This document shows, one piece after another, positions 46,485 through 61,909 of a stretch of 64,000 bases of DNA. Both the position numbers and the translations under genes were made by a program. The stretch comes from Cytophagales bacterium (GTDB taxonomy: Bacteria > Bacteroidota > Bacteroidia > Cytophagales > Microscillaceae): positions 1-64,000 of the forward strand of contig JAAFJG010000022.1 in the NCBI GenBank assembly GCA_013298075.1, in the 5' to 3' direction. Under the pieces are notes generated by a model. It made no database searches. It saw only the letters and a list, made by a program, of their open reading frames with translations, and was not told the DNA's origin. Every line of letters begins with the position of its first letter. Within the stretch, counting starts at the first letter, position 1.

Positions 46485-46530
46485 TTTTTTGTTCGTTGTT
46501 TTTATTTCTTATTTTTATCAAAAAAATAAA

Positions 46531-46556
46531 GGCAAGCCAAAGCTCGCCTTTTATAT
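46531..46556. other. Hairpin in the divergent MFS/peroxiredoxin intergenic region
   Basis: AAGGCAAGC and GCTCGCCTT form a stem with one mismatch around CAAA, followed by a T-rich tract on the plus strand. A terminator-like hairpin between two diverging starts is unexpected; it may end a small RNA or act in the leader of the MFS gene. Confidence 0.4.
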
Positions 46557-46760
46557 TTTTTCTTGATAAATCAATGAATTTTTAATATAAAGTCTAAAAA
46601 GACAAGCAAAGGTAATATATTATTTAAAAAAAAGCAAAATAAAGTATCAAAAAATAAAAGAAAGACAAATTGAACATTTTTTTTATTTAAAATGTAGGAA
46701 CATAATCGACCTAAAAATTGTTATTGATGTAGTAAAATATTTTCACAACACAAAAAAATT

Positions 46761-47330
46761 ATGAGTTTAGTTCTTAAAAAAGCACCCGAATTTTCTGCTC
46801 CCGCTGTGATTGGCGACAAAGTAGAGCAAAATTTTTCTTTAAGTAAATACGAAGGAAAATATATCGTTTTATTTTTCTATCCCAAAGATTTTTCAGGCGT
46901 TTGTCCGACTGAATTTTGGGCTTTTCAAGAGAGATTAGCAGATTTTGAAAGCAGAGGGGCTGTGGTGGTTGGCTGTTCGGGAGATAGCGATGAATCGCAT
47001 AAAGTATGGTTAAAAACGCCAAGAAATCAAAACGGAATCGAAGGCATTACTTTTCCTTTGGTGTCTGATTTGGCAAAAACTATCGCCACTAATTATGGAG
47101 TTTTGGGTGGTGATTATACGTATGATGACGAGGGAAGATTGGCTTTCGAAGGCTCTCCTATTGCGTTGAGAGGCACATTTATCATCAATCCGACAGGAAT
47201 TGTGATGCACCAAGCCGTTAATTTTTTTACAGTGGCACGTGATATTGATTCTATTTTGAGAGAATTAGATGCGATTCAATTATTCGAAAAAGAAGGACAA
47301 TTATGTTTGGCAAATTGGAAGAAAAAATAA
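46761..47330 (+). CDS. 2-Cys peroxiredoxin (AhpC/Tpx-like)
   Basis: The 189-residue thioredoxin-fold protein has the peroxidatic Cys48 in SGVCPTEFWAF, the conserved Arg in ALRGTFIINPTG, and a resolving Cys182 in GQLCLANW close to the C-terminus, as in the Prx1/AhpC group. It reduces hydrogen peroxide and organic peroxides with electrons from thioredoxin or AhpF. The usual FTFVCPTE is changed to FSGVCPTE and the tail after the resolving Cys is short (six residues). No AhpF gene is adjacent. It is transcribed alone and closed by a strong terminator. Confidence 0.92.
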   Translation: MSLVLKKAPEFSAPAVIGDKVEQNFSLSKYEGKYIVLFFYPKDFSGVCPTEFWAFQERLADFESRGAVVVGCSGDSDESHKVWLKTPRNQNGIEGITFPLVSDLAKTIATNYGVLGGDYTYDDEGRLAFEGSPIALRGTFIINPTGIVMHQAVNFFTVARDIDSILRELDAIQLFEKEGQLCLANWKKK

Positions 47331-47360
47331 GTCCCAAAAATATGTTATAAAATGTATTTC

Positions 47361-47405
47361 AAAAAAGCAAAAACATTGTATCTATCAATGTTTTTGCTTT
47401 TTTTT
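47361..47405 (+). terminator. Strong Rho-independent terminator after the peroxiredoxin gene
   Basis: AAAAGCAAAAACATTG pairs with CAATGTTTTTGCTTTT around a 7-base loop and continues into a T run. Confidence 0.9.
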
Positions 47406-47485
47406 ATTTTGATATAAAAAGAAAAAAAATTATTGTAGTTTTTTATTCAAATAAAAAAATAAAAAGAAATTTATTTTATTAGTAG

Positions 47486-47855
47486 TTTTTTCAGTTGTCA
47501 ATGTCGAAGACTTGACAACTGAAAAAAAAATACCCAACAATTATTTTATTTTTATTCAGTAGAGTTGTCAATGTGCGAAGCACTTGACAATCTCGGTTTT
47601 ATACATTTGACAAACTGAAAACACGACTTATTCGCAGAAGTTTCTTATTTCGGAGATTGTCAAGTCTGGTGACATTGACAACTCTAAAAAAAATACCCAA
47701 CAATTATTTTATTTTTATTCAGTAGAGTTGTCAATGTGCGAAGCACTTGACAATCTCGGTTTTATACATTTGACAAACTGAAAACACGACCTATTCGCAG
47801 AAGTTTCTTATTTCGGAGATTGTCAAGTCTTCGACATTGACAACTCCAAAATAAG
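47486..47855. repeat. Palindrome-rich array: one leading hairpin plus two tandem 163-base units
   Basis: A long hairpin (47486-47527) is followed by two direct repeats of period 163 (47531-47693 and 47694-47855), nearly identical. Each unit holds two hairpins of the type GTTGTCAA...TTGACAA (47562-47594, 47653-47684, 47725-47757, 47816-47846) that are inverted with respect to each other and enclose a core of about 58 bases. The tips of the hairpins differ but stay paired: GTC-GAA-GAC, GTGC-GAA-GCAC, GTC-TGGT-GAC and GTC-TTC-GAC. There is no coding content. It fills the gap between peroxiredoxin and the SUMF1 gene. Confidence 0.85.
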
Positions 47856-47889
47856 AAACTGATAAAAAATATAAACATATTACAATCAA

Positions 47890-47920
47890 AAAAAATACAA
47901 ACGTTACCGCTTGTATTTTT
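47890..47920 (-). terminator. Rho-independent terminator of the SUMF1-domain gene
   Basis: On the minus strand AAAAATACAAGCG pairs with CGTTTGTATTTTT (one mismatch), followed by further T. It starts 18 bases after the stop codon at 47938. Confidence 0.75.
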
Positions 47921-47937
47921 TATAAAAAGATAATACC

Positions 47938-49023
47938 CTATAAACTATCCACCCTGCAAAGACGCAAACCTAAGTTGGTGAACTTATCGGAAGGCGCAGA
48001 GTAGTCACGATAGGTAACACGACAATAACTTGCGAAGTTGACCCAACTACCGCCACGATAAACGAGGTGAGTGCCAGAGGAAGCATCAGGATAGTCAGCA
48101 TACGAATTTACATACCAATCTTTGCACCATTCCCACACATTGCCTGACATATCATAGATACCTAATTCATTGGGAGAAAGTTGTCCAACAGGATGTGTTT
48201 TACTTCCTGAGTTATCATAATACCAAGTCACGTCTATCAAGTTATTACTTCCTGAATATTTTGTTTTTTTAGTTGATTTTCCCCCTCGTGCCGCATATTC
48301 CCATTGTGCTTCCGAAGGTAAAATATAAGTTTTTCTTGTTAGTTTATTGAGTTTAGGTAAAAAATAATTGATTATTTCGTTATAACTAACATTTTCCACA
48401 GGACAATTATCACAATCTTTAAACGAACTCGGATTTGTTCCCATCACTGTTTTCCATAGTTTTTGAGTTACTTCAGTTTCTGCCATATAATAATTATTGA
48501 GTGTTATTTGTTTGGTTATTTTTTCTCTATCCTGACAATTATCGCCTTGTTCTGTGGTGCAACCTATCGTAAAAGTACCGCCTTCTACATAAATCATTTT
48601 AAAATTAATGCCTTTGATGGTTTCGGTATAGGTTTTTTGGGTATTTATAGGTTCAGAAGGTTTTTCTTTGGGTATAGGTTTAGAAGGCTTTTGAGTATAG
48701 CGTGCTTTTACTTTGAATACAAAATTATCGCCTTTCAGTGTTTGTATATCCTCAGTAATTGCCCATATTATTTGTTTTTTTCCTCTTGTTATATTCTCTC
48801 CTACATCTCCTCTTAAACTCCGGTTTTTAGGTATATAATCGGGTGTTTCTCCTTCATAAAGTTGTACACTTACCACAAAAGTTTGATTATCATCATCAGC
48901 CACGAGTTCATAATTAATGATAATTTCTTCTCCTTGTTGTCTTGCTTTTACGTTTTTTATTTGTTGTGCTGTTACATATTGATAAACACAAAATAAACAT
49001 AAAAAAAGGATTATTTTTTTCAT
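47938..49023 (-). CDS. Exported SUMF1/formylglycine-generating-enzyme-fold protein
   Basis: A signal peptide (residues 1-19, ending VTAQ) precedes a beta-rich domain (about 20-108), a Pro/Lys-rich linker (about 110-135) and a SUMF1 domain (about 138-358): FKMIYVEGGTFTIGC, YYMAETEVTQKLWKTVMG, LPSEAQWEYAARGG, GIYDMSGNVWEWCKDWY and YRGGSWVNFASYCRV. The fold is that of formylglycine-generating enzymes, but many Bacteroidota members, including GldJ/GldK-type proteins, are structural. I cannot confirm the catalytic cysteine pair, so it is given only as a SUMF1-fold protein. It is not close to a sulfatase gene. Confidence 0.88.
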   Translation of the reverse strand: MKKIILFLCLFCVYQYVTAQQIKNVKARQQGEEIIINYELVADDDNQTFVVSVQLYEGETPDYIPKNRSLRGDVGENITRGKKQIIWAITEDIQTLKGDNFVFKVKARYTQKPSKPIPKEKPSEPINTQKTYTETIKGINFKMIYVEGGTFTIGCTTEQGDNCQDREKITKQITLNNYYMAETEVTQKLWKTVMGTNPSSFKDCDNCPVENVSYNEIINYFLPKLNKLTRKTYILPSEAQWEYAARGGKSTKKTKYSGSNNLIDVTWYYDNSGSKTHPVGQLSPNELGIYDMSGNVWEWCKDWYVNSYADYPDASSGTHLVYRGGSWVNFASYCRVTYRDYSAPSDKFTNLGLRLCRVDSL

Positions 49024-56126: not shown

Positions 56127-56324
56127 GGAAAATATTGCAGATATAATTTTATTCTATATGAATAGAAATGGCATTTATGCTATTTATTAAAAAATATCAA
56201 TTTGAAAAATGCAGAGATTTTGGCTAAAGCCAACGATTGAATTTTTTATTATCCTCCAGATAAATCTGGAGGCAATTCAAAAAATATTTTTATTTTTCGC
56301 ACAAATTTACTAAGAGCCATACTT
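56127..56324. repeat. Hairpin-rich dispersed repeat, family C, copy 1
   Basis: The stretch contains TTGGCTAAAGCCAA (56220-56233) and the perfect hairpin CCTCCAGATAAATCTGGAGG (56253-56272), with TTGAATTT before and AATTCAA after (56274-56280), which pair outside it. The left part (GCAGATATAATTTTATTCTA) and the right part (CGCACAAATTT) also match copy 2 at 61700. There is no reading frame. It lies between the ABC exporter and the glycosyltransferase gene. Confidence 0.75.
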
Positions 56325-61699: not shown

Positions 61700-61909
61700 G
61701 GAAATTATTGTAGATATAATTCTGGTCTATATATGAATATTTTTTTATTTTGAAAATATAGAAAAATATCTATTTGAGAAACATAAAAATTTTGGCTAAA
61801 GCCAAGAATTGAATTTTATATTAACATCCAGATAAATCTAGAGGCAATTCAAAAAATACATTTCAAAAAAAATCATTTTCCGCATAAATTTCCCAAGAAC
61901 CACTTTTTT
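61700..61909. repeat. Hairpin-rich dispersed repeat, family C, copy 2
   Basis: It shares with copy 1 the elements TTGGCTAAAGCCAA (61792-61805), a CATCCAGATAAATCTAGAGG stem (61825-61844, one side changed and less well paired), AATTCAAAAAATA and the right-end CGCATAAATTT...AGAACCAC. The flanks of the gap (61393-61699 and 61910-62001) are AT-rich and hold no gene I can support. Confidence 0.7.

Follow-up and report, generated by a model that had tools for sequence, protein, structure and literature searches.

A hairpin array between converging genes in a Cytophagales genome, probably a BIME-like cluster of a dispersed, REP-like palindrome family

Between a peroxiredoxin gene on the forward strand and an FGE-sulfatase-domain gene on the reverse strand, which converge on each other, a Cytophagales genome carries an array of palindromes. 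The locus raises the question of what these palindromes are and how they came to be there. In the present study, we analyzed the whole 64-kb stretch of DNA that contains the array (hereafter, the window), together with its own genome (G000; 4.71 Mb, 153 contigs) and related genomes. An initial annotation of 47486-47855 had described five hairpins whose tips change in a compensating manner, and two direct repeats with a period of 163. All five hairpins were found, with the GTC/GAC and GTGC/GCAC tips that it had reported, and both repeat units were recovered. The coordinates are listed in Table 1.

Table 1. Hairpins, repeat units and flanking features of the array (positions in the window).
Feature	Coordinates	Strand	Description
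AhpC/TSA peroxiredoxin gene	46761..47330	+	
Terminator-like hairpin	47361..47403	+	T tail; after peroxiredoxin gene
Hairpin 1	47482..47527	+	GTAG (47482-47485) at stem foot; stem 16 bp, 47486-47501 with 47512-47527
Hairpin 1, inner part	core 47495-47518	+	unpaired T, GTC/GAC tip, GAA loop
First direct-repeat unit	47512..47667	.	156 nt
Hairpin 2	47559..47594	+	GTAG 47559-47562; core 47565-47590; GTGC/GCAC tip; GAA loop; GCGAAGC within
Hairpin 3	47653..47684	-	core 47657-47681; GTC/GAC tip; 4-base loop ACCA on - strand
Second direct-repeat unit	47675..47830	.	156 nt; 98% identical to first; spacing 163
Hairpin 4	47722..47757	+	core 47728-47753; duplicate of hairpin 2; GCGAAGC within
Hairpin 5	47802..47860	-	core 47820-47843; duplicate of hairpin 3 with GAA loop; outer stem 17 bp
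Terminator-like hairpin	47890..47921	-	T tail; after - strand gene
FGE-sulfatase domain (PF03781) gene	47938..49023	-	

The pattern TTGTCAA-N4..30-TTGACAA matched five times in the window, compared with a mean of 0.06 in 100 dinucleotide shuffles, none of which reached five. DNA folding indicated that hairpins 1, 2, 3, and 5 were each better than 200 of 200 shuffles, hairpin 4 being a copy of hairpin 2. According to the identity and spacing of the repeat units, the pairs 2/4 and 3/5 represent a tandem duplication, and the members of each pair are therefore not independent of each other. When ordered by the strand of the unpaired T, the hairpins read + + - + - and include two head-to-head pairs; thus the array is not a plain tandem run of hairpins. 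The compensating tips were present in the window, but they amounted to one real difference, between tips of 3 bp and of 4 bp, together with changes in the loop. It is the copies outside the window, not the five hairpins within it, that provide the strong evidence for covariation.

The pattern of the initial annotation matched 47 times in the own genome, while its reversed control gave no match. A search for the exact-core palindromic form revealed 52 places (control, 0), so further copies do exist, contrary to one of the two conditions that the annotation had named as refuting its reading. The same form occupied 31 places in a genome of the same genus (G001) and 66 in a genome of another genus of the family (G004), and no exact-core place was found in G002, a member of the same genus whose assembly is 79% complete. 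At least one match was present in 19 of the 57 genomes searched. The 54 genomes other than G000, G001, and G004 had 0 to 3 matches each (0 to 2 in the controls); judged by sequence, the three copies of G013 and the two of G009 were of the true kind, and most of the other low-count matches were not. In a collection of 84,980 species, from which the own genome may be absent, the core pattern, there fixed to a GNA loop, was found in 60 stretches. These came from seven MAG accession series, whose titles all read Bacteroidetes or Cytophagales. The viral contigs gave no match to the core pattern. To date, the family is known only from a set of Bacteroidetes/Cytophagales MAGs, and we found no published description of a TTGTCAA/TTGACAA hairpin family in the open-licence papers searched.

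Comparison of the copies revealed a common anatomy. Each unit consists of TTGTCAA, an unpaired T, a tip that is either 3 bp (GTC/GAC) or 4 bp long (GGTC/GACC, GTGC/GCAC), a loop, TTGACAA, usually one unpaired base, and the 3' arm of an outer stem. The outer stem is variable, being scored at 0-17 bp; a score of 0 was given to 8 of 60 own places, partly through reading on the other strand. The inner sequence was TGTCGAAGAC in 26 of these 60 places and TGTGCGAAGCAC in 4, and the others had decayed; an in-gene match among them (C66:7329) is probably due to chance. Since the pattern used for the 84,980 species fixes the GNA loop, loops were counted by eye from the exact-core listing. The loop was GAA or GCA in 29 of 33 G004 hairpins and in 20 of 21 G001 hairpins, and AAA in the remainder. 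In 3 of these 21 G001 hairpins a G took the place of the unpaired T, which was present in all 80 rows of the alignment described below; those rows had been chosen for it. When closed by G-C pairs, GNA and GNNA loops are described as forming exceptionally stable DNA mini-hairpins, with GCGAAGC melting at 78 C (PMC4686876). Loops of this stable type would point to single-stranded DNA (ssDNA) rather than to RNA.

To evaluate the pairing across copies, we assembled 93 non-redundant hairpins (a 5'-side T, at least 2 bp in the tip, and no more than one core substitution) and aligned 80 of them from nine genomes. The 13 left out were L011, L019:1649 (window hairpin 3), L110, L125:1694, L125:1605, L146, L148, L156, L165, L167:6509, L139:6255, L183, and L186. 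Owing to the filter, the alignment leans towards well-formed hairpins. The stated structure was paired in 90.3% of cells, compared with 73.3±0.7 in shuffles, and 294 cells carried double changes compared with 103±10 in shuffles, none of 500 of which reached 294. Pairs changed on both sides numbered 14 of 22 (12.1±0.8 in shuffles), a count reached by 17 of 500 shuffles. Shuffling does not remove the relatedness between rows. When the 3' side was shifted by 1-3 columns, the pairing fell to 35-48%. For the 11 outer pairs in all 93 hairpins, 77.4% were paired versus 54.6±1.2, with 241 double changes versus 92±9. The changes were located in the tip and the outer stem, and each of the seven core pairs departed in at most 2 of 80 hairpins, a constancy that is partly ascertained because the core itself served to find the hairpins. 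Template switching can also make perfect palindromes and so mimic covariation. These results indicated that pairing rather than sequence was kept, as the initial annotation had proposed from the window.

We then considered where the copies lie. Under the above filter for tip and core, and with copies sharing identical 12-nt flanks merged (36 own hairpins counted), 122 of 127 hairpins lay outside ORFs, the exceptions being four in two G001 loci and one in L184. Opposite-orientation pairs were also present at L015, L029, and L039. The 28 own gaps that hold hairpins comprised 15 convergent, 9 co-directional, and 4 divergent ones, while the 32 gaps longer than 80 nt in the window, the only background used, comprised 4, 23, and 5, respectively (15/28 versus 4/32 convergent, p 0.0008). 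The unmerged own list of 62 was distributed between 30 convergent, 19 co-directional, and 6 divergent positions, with 4 at an edge and 3 inside ORFs. No strand bias relative to co-directional genes was detected (same strand 27, opposite 21, p 0.47); the small "other" set alone gave 8 and 2. Relatives of the FGE-sulfatase-domain gene lay beside hairpins in six loci (the window gene, L014, L038, L110, L124, and L143) and probably form an abundant paralogous family. In addition, TTCTGCGAATA or its complement often stood on one side of long-stem hairpins in the own genome (e.g., L009, L047, L117, and window 47630-47640), and it is perhaps part of a composite unit.

The sites differ between close relatives. 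In G001 and G002, the orthologous regions downstream of three flanking genes, matched by one flank per site, contained no TTGTCAA hairpin (0 of 6, one substitution allowed; beyond the peroxiredoxin gene, the contig of G001 continues for 157 nt). Another palindrome was present in three of the six regions: GTGCAAGCGT...ACGCTTGCAC pairs at the G001 peroxiredoxin site and the G002 L116 site, and a palindrome of a different kind at the G002 L015 site. The G001 L015 site carried short tandem repeats, and two regions held nothing notable. The GTGCAAGCGT...ACGCTTGCAC family occurred in pairs in the two congeners, at L218 1-100, L204 3189-3214, and L210 1255-1318 (G001) and at L233 2410-2470 (G002), and its palindrome lay within 1.3 kb of the G001 Y1 genes of L204 and L210.

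This siting bears on whether the hairpins are (bidirectional) transcription terminators or 3'-end stabilizers in RNA that were selected for that role, with the core as mere raw material. The enrichment between convergent genes is consistent with such a role, as are the outer stems of some G004 copies, which continue into A/T tracts. Among the 37 own hairpins with an outer stem of at least 7 bp, a T-rich stretch followed the foot on the unpaired-T strand in 16 and on the opposite strand in 4. REPs themselves are described as often lying downstream of genes, where they may act in RNA (PMC3733652). However, each of the two genes that flank the array is followed by its own terminator-like hairpin, and terminator calling in the window called none of the five array hairpins. 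The lack of a strand preference relative to co-directional genes also argues against this explanation, and a terminator would not need a 7-bp core and an unpaired T that are constant across genera. We regard a terminator or stabilizer role as a rather unlikely explanation of the family, but some copies may act as terminators.

Integron attC sites, presumably not the identity of these hairpins, were set aside. The features above agree better with REP-like elements handled as folded ssDNA. Like GTAG REPs, BIMEs, and REPINs, the hairpins are dispersed, short, extragenic, imperfect palindromes with conserved pairing and complementary stem variants, which lie between convergent and co-directional genes, form head-to-head dimers and clusters, and in a subset carry GTAG at the foot (PMC3733652, PMC3116915, as far as these sources describe such elements; PMC3733652 places REPs mainly in such gaps). 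Of 60 own places, 17 had GTAG no more than 16 nt 5' of the core, versus 2.8% by chance, although these copies are related by descent and their p value is thus not independent. It stood directly before the T-run stem at the foot in 14 of the 17 and took the form GTAGAG in 3; it was absent from the other 43 own copies, and none was seen in the G004-type copies examined. TnpA-REP enzymes are reported to bind folded ssDNA, that of E. coli requiring both the stem bulge and GTAG, and an unpaired T is contacted in IS608 (PMC8266576). Unlike GTAG REPs, the studied family has GTAG in a minority of the own copies, an AT-rich long outer stem, and no linked RAYT gene. One published REP finder, as described in PMC6006769, requires G+C-rich stems and would therefore miss the AT-rich TTGTCAA family.

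Other described systems share single features with the family. The long hairpin with a bulge resembles the REPs of TnpA-Y1 subclass 2.2, the GTAG...CTAC foot of one copy (L130) resembles the "double foot" REPs of subclasses 2.2/2.4, and the atypical structures of the Bacteroidetes Y1 subclass 2.6 can also be likened to it (all in the account of PMC6006769); unlike in these subclasses, the Y1 genes of the studied genomes adjoin other palindromes. The subterminal hairpins of IS200/IS605 elements (IS608, ISDra2) likewise have an unpaired T in an ssDNA stem (PMC8266576, in its description of these elements), but the studied hairpins enclose neither a transposase nor an element. CGTC REPs are known from Bacteroidetes, and the account in PMC3733652 reports no dedicated transposase for them, which parallels the studied family; unlike them, the copies examined by eye showed no CGTC tag.

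To look for a linked enzyme, we searched with PF01797 in 15 genomes of the family (36 matches, 30 loci) and in 4 further hairpin-bearing MAGs (17 matches, 17 loci), and with NF047646 in 6 genomes (25 matches, 20 loci). The studied hairpin was found at none of the 67 Y1 loci (78 matches; loci partly overlapping; flanks up to 1.5 kb), and neither the RAYT gene that the initial annotation had suggested nor the REPtron arrangement, in which the same palindrome flanks the RAYT/Y1 gene, was seen among them. The core pattern with one substitution occurred at three loci (L103:116, L240:1166, and L213:1632), none of which forms the hairpin; the first two were rejected as linked copies because the tip is not formed. 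The nearest thing to a Y1 link is L213 in G013, a genome with three exact-core copies. There, at 951-1680, a Y1 gene is followed at a distance of no more than 300 nt by AGATTTGACAACCCTTTAAGGGTTGTCAAATCT palindromes (AGATTTGACAACCC...GGGTTGTCAAATCT), which hold the words of the studied hairpin in reverse order and without the unpaired T. In another MAG, the Y1 gene of L243 lies near TTGTCAGTTTTGAGAAACTGACAA-like palindromes (~1896) of similar outline, TTGTCAG...CTGACAA without bulge or unpaired T.

Several Y1 loci had palindromes of their own, and this also applied to the own genome. Its one Y1 transposase above the Pfam cut-off (C82:24206-24577) is flanked on both sides by a CCTCCAGATTTATCTGGAGG palindrome (L061 1106-2143). 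Exact copies of this palindrome occupy 219 places in the own genome, and G001, G002, and G004 have none. The protein scored above the cut-off of the IS200/IS605 model NF033573, and its HUH-Y1 motif (...YIKNQEEHH) resembles that of subclass 1.2, for which the listing in PMC6006769 gives no REP. The CCTCCAGATTTATCTGGAGG palindrome also occurs in the window at 56253-56272 and 61825-61844, one copy exact and one with two mismatches. A weak second Y1-like match was located at C24:68789 (E 0.003, 25 positions).

Because GTAG is not in most members and a linked RAYT gene was not found, we filed the family as a REP-like variant rather than as a REP/RAYT system. Collectively, the array probably represents a BIME-like cluster, and the dispersed, non-coding palindrome family to which it belongs is REP-like and would be recognized as folded ssDNA and spread by an enzyme. 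In the proposed mechanism, one strand of the unit, as ssDNA, would form an imperfect hairpin with the near-constant 7-bp TTGTCAA/TTGACAA stem, and the outer-stem sequence would be free provided that pairing is kept. A protein that handles folded ssDNA may recognize the unpaired T together with the constant stem and thereby spread the units; a candidate is a TnpA-REP-type Y1/HUH enzyme that acts in trans or has since been lost. Copies would survive downstream of genes, and local duplication would build clusters.

In a variant of this reading, the units would be spread by an ssDNA enzyme other than Y1/RAYT, or a single Y1 enzyme would act in trans on several unlinked palindromes, with recognition limited to the 7-bp stem and the unpaired T and any paired outer stem accepted; we consider this quite unlikely. 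If this variant is true, the family would represent a REP-like system without a transposase of its own, in a lineage for which we found no such description. It is very doubtful that the hairpins are ends or remnants of a MITE-like transposon spread by a DDE or other enzyme. The own genome does contain composite units of two hairpins with a partly conserved spacer, as that explanation would have it, but no transposase family was recognized among the recurring neighbor genes (201 ORFs within 700 nt; clusters partly annotated), and the flank-free short units in other genera have only ~30 nt in common. A structured RNA or RNA regulator is extremely improbable, for although the covariation fits RNA as well as ssDNA, the array region (46500-48200) matched no Rfam family at gathering score (43 low-threshold matches, E up to 5, were taken as chance), strand bias was absent, and copy number and sites vary between close species. 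Of the two readings offered by the initial annotation, REP/BIME elements or a structured RNA, the first was thus favored by the extragenic siting, the head-to-head pairs, the unpaired stem base, and the GTAG subset, and the second received little support.

If the REP-like reading is true, the family would extend REP-like elements to AT-rich Cytophagales. The copies set apart the fixed parts of the unit (the 7-bp core, the unpaired T, and the mostly GNA loop) from the free parts (the paired tip and the outer stem), so the question of recognition is open to direct testing. Furthermore, this unlinked family coexists in one genome with a Y1-linked palindrome family of 219 copies, which would offer a natural comparison for the origin or persistence of orphan REPs.
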